Positions 14,910 to 18,506 of a stretch of DNA of 21,855 nt are shown in pieces; position 1 is the first letter of the stretch, and every line of letters begins with the position of its first letter. The notes under the pieces were generated by a model. That model ran no database searches. It was not told where the DNA came from and saw only the letters and a program-made list of their open reading frames with translations. Location of the stretch: IMG/VR virus record IMGVR_UViG_3300030106_003528, positions 1 through 21,855 of that record; one strand, given 5' to 3'. This DNA is from a virus. The translations under genes and the position numbers were made by a program.

Positions 14910-15416
14910 CTATTTCTCTATGTAGTTAATATTAATCAAAATACGCCTATCTTGATCAGTTTGACTGACTGCTCTATGTTTTAAAGAAGCATCAAATATA
15001 ACTATTTTATTTTGAACAGAATCTACTTTTTCACCTCGTTCAAACTCGGTGTAACCATTATTAGTGTTGATATAGAATATAGCTGTCTTGTGATTATATT
15101 TATTTTCTCCGTCAGCATCATCTGTGTGATAACAAGACATATACGGCTCATGTTTTTTTACATACAAGTTTGCTCTCGCAAACATTAAAGATTTAACATT
15201 ATCTAATGAAAATAATAAGGGTTCCATAATGCTATCGTAATATCCAGATCTAGGTTGATTGTCTGAATAAAATAAATGAGAAAAATAAGGATCATCTTTT
15301 TGTCCTTTATTTTTAGTTTGAGAAGCTTGATAGAACCACGCAAAATTAGGAGAGGTAATTTCTCTAAATGTGCTTTCAAAAACGTTTGGTAATAAAAAAT
15401 TATCTATTGTTTTCAT
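14910..15416 (-). CDS. 2OG-Fe(II) oxygenase, sixth gene of the block
   Basis: The 168-residue protein has H97 and D99 (SCYHTDD) and H147 (LKHRAVS) as iron ligands and R157/R158 before ILININY for 2OG. It is the paralogue of the 161-aa oxygenase at 3075-3560, sharing the FSHLFYSD-type N-terminal segment, the RANLY segment before the HxD and the NGYTEFERGEK block. The start overlaps the preceding stop by 4 nt (ATGA) and lacks a Shine-Dalgarno, implying coupled translation. It ends the run of six oxygenases, 41 nt before the tail-hub gene. The substrate is unknown. Confidence 0.84.
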   Translation of the reverse strand: MKTIDNFLLPNVFESTFREITSPNFAWFYQASQTKNKGQKDDPYFSHLFYSDNQPRSGYYDSIMEPLLFSLDNVKSLMFARANLYVKKHEPYMSCYHTDDADGENKYNHKTAIFYINTNNGYTEFERGEKVDSVQNKIVIFDASLKHRAVSQTDQDRRILININYIEK

Positions 15417-16015
15417 TTAGGTGCCGGCTCTGGTTCTGCTTTTACTGTATAATTAGCTGCTACTGAAATACGCTCTATGTCTGATTTAAAAGGATAAACT
15501 AAATGTCTAAGTGATCCAGGAAACATAAAAAAATCTCCCTCGTTAGGAAAAAATGTTTTTTGATGTATGCTATATTTTGCTGGTTCTCCTGATAAGAATT
15601 GTATACAACCTGGTCCTGATGCAGTTCCAACGTATGCTTTATTTTCTTTTTTTAACTCTTCAGGAATATCTAAAAACAATACACTAGAAAAATCACATCC
15701 AGTATGTATATGTGGTGGATTAAACTCTCCTGCTTTCATATAATTAACCCAAGCAGAGGTTACAACAATGTCCGCACCTTTTTTAAAACTATACCACTCT
15801 TTAGCTGCTTGATTAAAATCACTTAAATAAGGTACCATTATTTCTAAATAATCTCTTAACTCTATTGTGTACTCGTGTTCTATAATACCTGCTAAAGATT
15901 TTCTATGATCTAGTTTTGGATCTTTACGACAAATACGTTTAAGTTTTTTTAAATGACCAGGTAATATTGTTGTATGAAATAGTAATGGACCCCAATAAAA
16001 AAATTGCCAACTCAT
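15413..16015 (-). CDS. 2OG-Fe(II) oxygenase-fold protein with HxH site, fifth gene of the block
   Basis: The 200-residue protein resembles the '2OG-FeII_Oxy_5' type of oxygenase: TSAWVNYMKAGEFNPPHIH, then a hydrophobic strand SSVLFLDIP, a GPGCIQFL strand, and GDFFMFPGSLRHLVYPF with ERISVAANY at the end. The likely metal residues are H102, H104 and H171, with R182 for 2OG. Where most relatives have HxD it shows HxH (HIHTGCD), so the acidic ligand is either D108 or missing; activity therefore needs checking. The C-terminus is a short Ala/Glu/Pro tail. The start overlaps the previous stop by 4 nt (ATGA) with only a weak TTAGAAA upstream. Confidence 0.8.
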   Translation of the reverse strand: MSWQFFYWGPLLFHTTILPGHLKKLKRICRKDPKLDHRKSLAGIIEHEYTIELRDYLEIMVPYLSDFNQAAKEWYSFKKGADIVVTSAWVNYMKAGEFNPPHIHTGCDFSSVLFLDIPEELKKENKAYVGTASGPGCIQFLSGEPAKYSIHQKTFFPNEGDFFMFPGSLRHLVYPFKSDIERISVAANYTVKAEPEPAPK

Positions 16016-16671
16016 ATTTTTCTAATCACCCTTGTTTTTATAAGTTCTGCATTTTCTTTCCTAAACCAATCTGGTAAACCTATATGAGATCTACCATCAA
16101 ATTTATCTTCTGATTTAAAAGTTCCCTCTTCATTATAATGTAAAAAAACTTGAACACAATCATCTCCTTCAAAAGGTTTTCTCCAATGTTCTAAATCGCA
16201 ACCACGATAAACTAACATATCTCCTGGATTTAAATCAACTTTAATTCCTTTATTATTCACCCCACCTGTTGGGTCTAAATAAATAGGATAAGGTTTATCA
16301 AAACCTAAAGCCATGGTTGTTGATATAGCACAACTAGGTCTATCTTTATGTCTGTCAAGTTTATCTCCTTTTCTATAAATACGAGCATATGAATACATAG
16401 GCGACAAATCTAAACCAGTATGTTTTTTCATAACTGGATGCATCCAAGCTAATAATGTTTCCATGGCAACATCTGAATAATGAACATATGTTCCTGGAAC
16501 TTGTTCATCACCCCATCGTCCCCATTCGCTGGTTGTATTGTCTGTGATTCCATATCTAAAAAATGTATGTGATACTTCTCTTTTTAATAAAAAATAATCA
16601 GTAATAAATCTTGAAAGTATTTCAGGAATAGCCTCTTTTATAATTATATATCTATCTTTTTCAAAGTTCAT
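16012..16671 (-). CDS. 2OG-Fe(II) oxygenase, fourth gene of the block
   Basis: The 219-residue protein has an N-terminal helical region, then the beta-helix core: SYARIYRKGDKLDRHKDRPS supplies H108 and D110, and GDMLVYRGCDLEHWRKPF supplies H162. The usual RxS arginine on the last strand is replaced by a QVFLHY strand, so R164 next to the distal His, or another basic residue, may hold 2OG. This EHWR variant is familiar to me from oxygenases of marine bacteria and phages without an assigned substrate. A C-terminal tail of about 40 residues (SHIGLPDWFRKE) follows the core. Its start and end lie in 4-nt ATGA overlaps. Confidence 0.82.
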   Translation of the reverse strand: MNFEKDRYIIIKEAIPEILSRFITDYFLLKREVSHTFFRYGITDNTTSEWGRWGDEQVPGTYVHYSDVAMETLLAWMHPVMKKHTGLDLSPMYSYARIYRKGDKLDRHKDRPSCAISTTMALGFDKPYPIYLDPTGGVNNKGIKVDLNPGDMLVYRGCDLEHWRKPFEGDDCVQVFLHYNEEGTFKSEDKFDGRSHIGLPDWFRKENAELIKTRVIRKI

Positions 16672-17312
16672 GTTTTGTATAAGGGTATATAGTTATGCAT
16701 AAATTTATGAGTGAACTCATGATATCTTCTTAACACACCAACAGGTATAATATCAAATGCTATGGTTACTCTATGATCTTCATTTAACCATGGCGAACTT
16801 CTGTGTTCGTCTCCATCTGATTTTCCAAAAACACATAAACCATTTTTACTTGTAATTCTTAATACATTTTCTTTATTAGGAAGTTTGTAATCTGTATATG
16901 AATCATGTTTACCTTCTGTATGAACACAATAAAAACCATGGTATGTTTTAAATTCAGGTTCCCAATGACTGTGCCAACCTATATTTTTTTCTTTTGCAAA
17001 TAGATTAACCCAACATCTTACATAATATTGTTCTTCTAAATTTATTACTCTGTTAATACTGAATGAAAGAGTGGTATATAATTTTTGTAATTGTGGGCAT
17101 GGAAAACTAAATAAATTATATTCTGTATGATAGTAACTTGAAAAACAACCATATTTATTTTCTTCAATAGCAGGAAATTTTTCTTTTAATTCTTTCTCTA
17201 CTTCATAACAAGTTAGTAGTAATTTTTTATTATTTATACCTGGGTATTTAAACAACCATAAATAATCTTTTACGGCATTTTCTATTTCATAATTAGAATA
17301 ATTATACTCCAT
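16668..17312 (-). CDS. 2OG oxygenase-like protein with HxH site, third gene of the block
   Basis: The 214-residue protein has a helical first half and an oxygenase-like second half: YVRCWVNLFAKEKNIGWHSH, then a GFYCV strand, a GLCVFGKSDGDEHRSSPW segment and EDHRVTIAFDI. The candidate metal residues are H114, H116 and H170, with R181 on the last strand. As in the 200-aa protein, HxH stands where HxD is usual; E118 just after it could provide the carboxylate. The family is close to hydroxylase-like genes of marine phages, with no assigned substrate. It overlaps the upstream stop by 11 nt, and TAGAG lies just ahead of the start. Confidence 0.74.
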   Translation of the reverse strand: MEYNYSNYEIENAVKDYLWLFKYPGINNKKLLLTCYEVEKELKEKFPAIEENKYGCFSSYYHTEYNLFSFPCPQLQKLYTTLSFSINRVINLEEQYYVRCWVNLFAKEKNIGWHSHWEPEFKTYHGFYCVHTEGKHDSYTDYKLPNKENVLRITSKNGLCVFGKSDGDEHRSSPWLNEDHRVTIAFDIIPVGVLRRYHEFTHKFMHNYIPLYKT

Positions 17313-17880
17313 ACTCTAACCATCCAGTAATAATATATTTGTCTTTTGTTAGAGGGGAATTACCTCTATGTGTGTGAGTGAAACCACTAGGCCAAATTAA
17401 ACAAGTTCCTTGAGTTGGTTTATATCTTTTCTTAATATATAAAAACTCAGTTTCTCCACCTTCCTCTATATCATTTAAATAAACTGTAAAAACTAAAAGT
17501 CTATCTCTTGTAACTTTTGATTCATGTTCCGTGTGCCATACATGATATCCTTCTCCTGGACAAGTTTTCTGTAATTTAAAATCATATATAGCGTGTTTAG
17601 ATACTCTATTTAATATAGAAAATTTAGATGCATACTGATCATAAAGAGGGAAAAATATTTCACTAAACTCTTTCATAAAATACAAAGGTAAATTTATAGA
17701 TTCTAAATTATCTAATACAGACCCTGGTATGCTAATACTTTCATCAGTTATCTCTGTTTTATTTCTTCTAAATGTTAAACCTGATTTTTTGTAAGTTTCA
17801 AATACATTTATATATTTTTCACAAAACTCTTTAGAAAAAGAATTCTCAAATATCCCTATAAAATTTTCTTCTTGCATCAT
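17302..17880 (-). CDS. Prolyl-4-hydroxylase-type 2OG-Fe(II) oxygenase, second gene of the block
   Basis: The 192-residue protein has the most recognisable prolyl-4-hydroxylase-like pattern of the set: CPGEGYHVWHTEHE with H116 and E118 (HxE instead of HxD), the LLVFTVYLND..EGGETEF block (about 128-146), PTQGTCLIWPSGFTHTHRGN with the distal His at 169 or 171, and KYIITGWLEY in which K181 replaces the usual Arg/Lys that binds 2OG. The family hydroxylates protein side chains, typically proline. I chose ATG 17880 because it gives the 4-nt ATGA overlap typical of this block; the frame is open to an ATG at 17898 (six extra residues, 22-nt overlap). Confidence 0.85.
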   Translation of the reverse strand: MMQEENFIGIFENSFSKEFCEKYINVFETYKKSGLTFRRNKTEITDESISIPGSVLDNLESINLPLYFMKEFSEIFFPLYDQYASKFSILNRVSKHAIYDFKLQKTCPGEGYHVWHTEHESKVTRDRLLVFTVYLNDIEEGGETEFLYIKKRYKPTQGTCLIWPSGFTHTHRGNSPLTKDKYIITGWLEYGV

Positions 17881-18506
17881 ACAAAAGGTTTTCCACAAGA
17901 CCAGATTACTAAACTATACCTTTTACCTTTAGTAATCGGTTTTACTCTATGATATAAATGACTTGGAAAAACAATTAAACTTCCTGCTTTTTTAATTTCT
18001 TTACAATCAATTATTCTTTCTGAACCCTTTAAACTAGGGTTTCCATTATAAAATTCTAAACCACCTCCTTCATATTCTGAAGCATTATTTAAAGAAAGAA
18101 TGGCAGATAACTTTCTTATCTTACCATGTTTGTGTTTATTTTCTGGAGTATTGTAAGGTTCATCCCAACAATCAATGTGCCAATTATAAAATTGATTTAA
18201 ATTATATTCAGTAAATTGCATGGGTTCTGTATAATCAATTTGAAAATTCCATTGAGTATTAATATTAGCCTTTGCCATCAATGGTAATATTATATCATAC
18301 ACCCAGCTATCACTAAAAAAACTTACGTTTGAATTTCTAGTTTGTTTCTGTAACTCTTGTTCTTTTTCATTTAATTTTTCTTTCCCACTAAAATCACCAG
18401 TTCTGCCTAAAAAAGTTTTTTTGCTTTTTCCATGTTCGATTACTTTTTTACAAAAATCAGAGGTAATTTGTGAATCAAAGAACCAATAAAAAAATTTTAA
18501 ATTCAT
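17877..18506 (-). CDS. PKHD-type 2OG-Fe(II) hydroxylase, first gene of the block
   Basis: The 209-residue protein resembles PKHD/PiuC-type hydroxylases: YNLNQFYNWHIDCW gives H110 and D112, the GKIRKLSAILSLNNASEYEG strand pair is followed by GGGLEFYNG, and KKAGSLIVFPSHLYHRVKPI with GKRYSLVIW gives H186 and R196. All four key residues are in place, so it should be active. It is the first gene of the six-oxygenase run and has a 57-nt gap upstream, in which a candidate promoter is found; only a weak AGAAAG precedes the start. Its stop overlaps the next start by 4 nt. It is a protein-oxygenase family with unknown substrate here. Confidence 0.86.
   Translation of the reverse strand: MNLKFFYWFFDSQITSDFCKKVIEHGKSKKTFLGRTGDFSGKEKLNEKEQELQKQTRNSNVSFFSDSWVYDIILPLMAKANINTQWNFQIDYTEPMQFTEYNLNQFYNWHIDCWDEPYNTPENKHKHGKIRKLSAILSLNNASEYEGGGLEFYNGNPSLKGSERIIDCKEIKKAGSLIVFPSHLYHRVKPITKGKRYSLVIWSCGKPFV

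Follow-up and report, generated by a model that had tools for sequence, protein, structure and literature searches.

A block of six 2OG-Fe(II) oxygenase genes in a marine phage: one version of an exchangeable tail-side island with a possible role in modifying tail proteins

Introduction

The closest described systems are those of the HTVC023P-type pelagiphages, in which eight non-orthologous 2OG-Fe(II) oxygenase (2OG) genes lie near one another, beside a gene named 'ferrochelatase' (PMC9599517). A 2014 survey placed 8 Fe(II) oxygenase genes of hypervariable metaviromic islands under 'host recognition' (PMC3909814). Earlier proposals for such genes include DNA repair, nitrogen or 2OG control, and a general part in auxiliary metabolism involving a haem-iron partner; for the halogenase, antibiotic protection has been put forward. 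VirX1, a characterised viral halogenase, has an active site that is large and accessible, and no natural pathway is listed for it (PMC8407142). Clustering of the oxygenases has been reported in part. As a tailoring system, the island was not found in the accessible parts of these proposals, in a literature drawn mostly from outside subscription journals; given this scope, priority for the idea is not established.

The window analysed here is the 21,855-base virus record IMGVR_UViG_3300030106_003528 (positions 1 to 21,855). It likely derives from a marine phage whose host is probably a SAR11 bacterium, since its stabilization protein is ~47% identical to those of 023Pt_psg01, HTVC027P and HTVC023P.

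Architecture of the array

The array comprises six minus-strand ORFs arranged head to tail (14910-18506), running from its first gene, g6 (from 18506), to g1 (to 14910), and is bordered upstream by the gene for a Gly-rich protein (PF21722) and downstream by the tail stabilization gene (Table 1). The overlaps g1/g2, g2/g3 and g3/g4 measure 4 nt each and g4/g5 11 nt. The g5/g6 overlap is 4 nt if g5 starts at the in-frame ATG at 17880, which is the likelier start, and 22 nt if it starts at the TTG at 17898. ORF coordinates, profiles and the models of g3 and g4 confirm the original prediction of six adjacent, overlapping minus-strand genes of the oxygenase fold. Every one of the six evolves under purifying selection (dN/dS 0.04-0.29), and chance is excluded as the source of the block. 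Two further 2OG-type genes lie outside it, one after the helicase gene and one, 40% identical to g1, overlapping the start of the endolysin gene.

Table 1. Features of the window (W), of related pelagiphage-like contigs and of the Syn10 array (L173).
Feature	Location	Strand	Evidence or remark
g1: 2OG oxygenase, 168 aa	W:14910..15416	-	phrog_274 4.2e-44, phrog_61 7e-6, HxD..H..R
g2: 2OG-FeII_Oxy_5 type, 200 aa	W:15413..16015	-	PF13759 1.7e-15, phrog_81 5e-33, HxH..H..R
g3: 2OG oxygenase fold (predicted), 219 aa	W:16012..16671	-	phrog_2954 6e-46, AF2 model, HxD..HWR
g4: divergent 2OG oxygenase, 214 aa, HxH type	W:16668..17312	-	AF2 model, Foldseek, g2-family profile
g5: prolyl-4-hydroxylase-like 2OG oxygenase, 198 aa (192 from ATG 17880)	W:17302..17898	-	PF13640 6.6e-11, phrog_61 5e-44, HxE..H..K
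g6: PKHD-like 2OG oxygenase, 209 aa	W:17877..18506	-	PF13640 7e-16, phrog_61 2.8e-31, HxD..H..R
Gly-rich tail-type protein, upstream border	W:18564..19514	-	PF21722 8.7e-14, phrog_2295, weak phrog_863 (tail fiber assembly)
phrog_7759-type small protein, Trp-rich family	W:19499..19984	-	phrog_7759 8.8e-25
Virion structural ('stabilization') protein, downstream border, conserved flank	W:12661..14868	-	phrog_3287 3e-96
2OG-type gene outside block	W:2158-2610	+	
2OG-type gene outside block	W:3075-3560	-	
VirX1-like tryptophan halogenase in array	L134:7962-9545		
VirX1-like tryptophan halogenase in array	L090:8234-9751		
VirX1-like tryptophan halogenase in array	L101:3787-5268		
VirX1-like tryptophan halogenase in array	L137:3601-5025		
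VirX1-like tryptophan halogenase in array	L125:5607-6992		
VirX1-like tryptophan halogenase in array	L112:5348-6547		
Carbamoyl- or sulfotransferase in slot	L095:8534-9922		
Carbamoyl- or sulfotransferase in slot	L098:7327-8904		
Carbamoyl- or sulfotransferase in slot	L104:6612-7955		
Carbamoyl- or sulfotransferase in slot	L118:7693-8499		
Carbamoyl- or sulfotransferase in slot	L096:8569-9381		
Syn10 VirX1 gene	L173:13499-15091		
Syn10 JmjC_2 gene	L173:18618-19328		
Syn10 DUF6445 gene	L173:20434-21045		weak 2OG match

Superfamily membership

All six proteins are assigned with high confidence to the 2OG-Fe(II) oxygenase superfamily, and activity is predicted for them. Four are placed by profile: g2, g5 and g6 score above the Pfam cut-offs, and g1 would owe its place to its phrog_61 match together with sub-threshold Pfam matches (PF05118, 0.0015; PF13640, 0.007). 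Neither g3 nor g4 has a Pfam match at E<=1; g3 is placed by a confident model, and g4 by a weaker model and a profile match. The AF2 model of g4 (pLDDT 75) has 3bvc as its best Foldseek match (E 3e-5), followed by human PHDs, and its profile aligns with that of the g2 family across the HxH, the distal His and the Arg. Sequence searches with g4 returned no match in the PDB, and none to g4 itself in cultured phages, although genes of Syn9/Syn10 do match its family profile. The double-stranded beta-helix fold is matched confidently by the g3 model and moderately by that of g4.

The metal residues of all six proteins are invariant in their family alignments: HxD/E..H in g1, g3, g5 and g6, and HxH in g2 and g4 (in g4 HxH..R, with a distal H). 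Since HxH is invariant in the PF13759-type family, it is probably functional. A C-terminal Arg/Lys for 2OG binding is seen in g1, g2, g4, g5 and g6, while g3 shows no clear equivalent. The proposed diversity of subfamilies stands: g6 is of the PKHD type, g5 of the P4H type, g2 and g4 of the HxH type, g3 of the EHWR type and g1 of the 161/168-aa type. By profile resemblance, g6 appears nearest to PKHD hydroxylases (3dkq, PiuC) and g5 to prolyl 4-hydroxylases (3itq, 5hv0). Most of the structures closest to g3, g5 and g6 are those of hydroxylases that act on proteins or peptides.

A role in repair or modification of nucleic acids, by AlkB-, Tet- or demethylase-like chemistry, is an older proposal for phage 2OG genes (PMC3037559, PMC9146016). 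It could draw on the PHROG name of g1 ('DNA endonuclease V') and on profile searches, in which g1 weakly matches an N6-methyladenine demethylase and g3, likewise weakly, Tet-like enzymes. However, these matches reach only E 0.01-0.3, and the genes are exchanged together with the tail genes that surround them, which leaves this role very improbable. The PHROG name of g1 belongs to phrog_274; phrog_2297 is named 'DNA endonuclease', and both families look like 2OG oxygenases.

g3 and the 'ferrochelatase' family

The PHROG family of g3, phrog_2954, carries the name 'ferrochelatase'. This identity is rejected for g3, given the lack of any Pfam family at E<=1, the oxygenase-fold model and the invariant metal motif. 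The AF2 model, built from a 46-sequence alignment (pLDDT 93.8), finds prolyl 4-hydroxylases as its best Foldseek matches, and in VIA-align prolyl hydroxylases, a PKHD oxygenase and the epimerase SnoN score Z ~17 against it. Among the misnamed 2OG-like PHROGs, phrog_2954 is the one backed by a (predicted) structure. No correction of the name was found in the literature searched, mostly outside subscription journals. Among 50,697 phage records, 154 contain relatives of g3. By name these are Synechococcus, Prochlorococcus, Pelagibacter or 'cyanophage' records, with the exception of one phage of unknown host and one marine single-cell virus.

The top Foldseek match of g3 is the Pseudomonas putida (P. 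putida) prolyl-4-hydroxylase solved with EF-Tu, and a JmjC_2 gene is present in the Syn10 array. Both would suit enzymes that hydroxylate host proteins during infection (e.g., EF-Tu or ribosomal proteins), in the manner of cellular prolyl hydroxylases and JmjC ribosomal oxygenases. Such conserved targets, however, leave the hypervariable enzyme sets, their confinement to the tail module and their exchange unexplained, and we consider this role improbable, second among the alternatives.

Arrays in related contigs

Relatives were fetched from IMG/VR with g4, g3 and the stabilization protein as queries, and the related contigs are HTVC023P-type pelagiphage-like. Oxygenases were called in them from iterated profiles, and 656 of the 666 ORFs so called keep the HxD/E/H...H...R/K pattern. 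The original prediction would have been contradicted by a block absent or scattered in all relatives; instead, the six-gene order of the window recurs in eight other contigs, and the location is strict. Within 81 loci centred on the stabilization gene, 320 of 328 2OG ORFs lie upstream of that gene and within 6.5 kb of it. At least two 2OG genes are present in 46 of the 48 loci with at least 6 kb of upstream sequence, with more where a Gly-rich gene is present, and some loci hold 2-5 oxygenases without one.

The arrays bounded by a Gly-rich gene contain 2-10 genes (48 loci, window included), which rules out six in a row as exceptional: the unusual size claimed for the block is not borne out, six being ordinary for this slot. 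Overlaps are found at 255 of 322 junctions over all arrays, 113 of them by exactly 4 nt. The largest, in L139, runs to ten consecutive array genes, all of which have matches to these families in PHROGs.

The location also bears on the published reading (PMC9599517, PMC11561400, PMC3037559), in which the genes serve auxiliary metabolism, with small molecules as substrates (2OG/nitrogen signalling, iron or secondary metabolites), and lie near tail genes by chance of recombination. Halogenases and SnoN-like matches do belong to metabolite tailoring. Nevertheless, the confinement of 2OG genes is too strict for this account, no biosynthetic scaffold genes are seen in the slot, and the 'ferrochelatase' partner on which it partly depends is predicted to have an oxygenase fold. 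The pairing of 'ferrochelatase' and oxygenase is weakened as a metabolic argument if, as it appears, the partner is another oxygenase. A metabolic role is unlikely, although it ranks first among the alternatives.

Exchange of the array

Not one of the 438 array genes is most closely related to another gene of the same contig, and for 403 no relative is detectable there at all. Recent tandem duplication is thereby ruled out, and separate acquisition, as originally proposed, is supported in the form of shuffling, with older duplications possibly lying behind it.

Two contigs, L086 and L088, encode stabilization proteins 90-91% identical to that of the window, yet their arrays are mostly unrelated to it, so that variable content lies between conserved flanks, as in a metaviromic island. 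Their Gly-rich and phrog_7759 proteins have diverged as well (31-41% identity; global alignment for the Gly-rich proteins). In L003, by comparison, the stabilization protein is 86%, the array 93-100% and the upstream proteins 95-96% identical to those of the window. When the loci fetched with the stabilization gene are compared, similarity between arrays tracks the Gly-rich protein (partial r 0.40, reached by 1 of 2000 permutations) but not the stabilization protein (partial r 0.00), though the stabilization gene equally adjoins the array. In the L086-type clade (L086, L107, L109 and others), the array is retained although the Gly-rich protein diverges; this, and the loci that lack a Gly-rich gene, argue that the Gly-rich protein is not the sole target.

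The Gly-rich protein is nonetheless the first candidate substrate, and the phrog_7759-type protein the second; both would be located in the virion. The Gly-rich protein has no sequence match in the PDB and may resemble the polyglycine gp38-type adhesins. In the phrog_7759-type family Trp averages 4.9%, against a background of 1.4%, and in 37 of 73 loci its gene is no more than 2.5 kb away from the array. The Trp/Pro composition of the candidate substrates, compared with halogenase presence or array size, gave a mixed outcome.

Other tailoring enzymes in the slot

Further tailoring enzymes are encoded inside the slot in 22 of the 81 loci: tryptophan halogenases (PF04820) in 8, carbamoyltransferases (PF16861/PF02543) in 8, sulfotransferases in 6 and methyltransferases in 2. 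None of these four classes was found outside the slot in these loci, and several of the genes are joined to oxygenase genes by equally short overlaps. The halogenase of L101 has VirX1 as its nearest match (E 5.5e-93).

Cultured phages with such arrays exist. A Syn10 gene matches the VirX1 sequence end to end, and follows tail-side genes and precedes eight genes that match 2OG profiles plus the JmjC_2 gene; a DUF6445 gene with a weak 2OG match is also present in this array. HTVC008M has five consecutive 2OG genes, its 'ferrochelatase' among them, and Sf-CH11 has the order 2OG-2OG-halogenase-2OG-'ferrochelatase', flanked by genes with Gly-rich matches.

Carbamoyl-, sulfo- and methyltransferases can also act on sugars, and a glycosyltransferase gene lies downstream of the stabilization gene in HTVC023P and HTVC027P. 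The enzymes or their products might modify host-surface or phage-bound glycans, and so mask or alter the receptor. The structures closest to g5 and g6, however, are those of prolyl and PKHD hydroxylases, and the slot of the window has no glycan pathway; this role appears quite improbable, third among the alternatives.

Discussion

From these observations we infer the catalytic activity, target and purpose of the array enzymes. Modification of tail or adhesin proteins fits best, because of the likeness to protein hydroxylases, the presence of a halogenase and of transferases able to use new hydroxyls, and the confinement to the tail slot with exchange alongside a tail-type gene. An exchangeable island with this function, of which the block would be one version, is a reading in which we place about even confidence. 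The six oxygenases would probably be made from one translationally coupled message, and each would hydroxylate a different side chain on a newly made tail or adhesin protein. In relatives, carbamoyl- or sulfotransferases may cap the new hydroxyls, and aromatic residues may receive halogens. Exchange of one enzyme set for another would then give the tip that contacts the host a different surface chemistry, and the island would in this way serve host recognition.

On the other side, the fold does not give the substrate, and the g3 model also matches a small-molecule enzyme (SnoN). The linkage may arise from recombination hot spots alone, and a literature search found no report of hydroxylated virion proteins. 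As for the original prediction as a whole, its diverse subfamilies and shuffling stand, and a dedicated modification cassette fits the strict location, the module exchange and the co-residence with other tailoring enzymes; the unusual size does not.

More tentatively, and with considerable doubt, an exchangeable island of natural-product-like tailoring enzymes may diversify tail adhesins in marine phages of several families, which would also supply the missing native role of VirX1. If so, phages would vary host contact by enzyme-made chemistry of the tail tip besides protein sequence, a further route in the arms race with SAR11 and picocyanobacteria, and orphan viral enzymes (VirX1, phage carbamoyltransferases) would gain a shared, testable context.

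Comparison with known systems

The window is an ordinary member of a remarkable, mostly unrecognised island. The HTVC023P-type pelagiphages belong to the same phage lineage. However, their 2OG genes were called non-adjacent and metabolic, with a haem-iron partner (PMC9599517), whereas here they form contiguous, overlapping arrays of 2-10 and the partner is predicted to have an oxygenase fold. For the islands of the 2014 survey, neither the structure of an array nor a mechanism was given, and no further tailoring enzymes (PMC3909814). The cyanophages Syn9/Syn10 and Sf-CH11 and the pelagiphage HTVC008M resemble the window in having 2OG genes and a g3-like gene beside tail-type genes, but they are T4-like myoviruses with other neighbours, and arrays in this group include a halogenase, which the block of the window lacks. 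With PKHD hydroxylases/PiuC and bacterial prolyl 4-hydroxylases, the array enzymes have a common fold and metal motif, although identity in the structural matches is 10-16% and g2 and g4 carry HxH rather than HxD/E.
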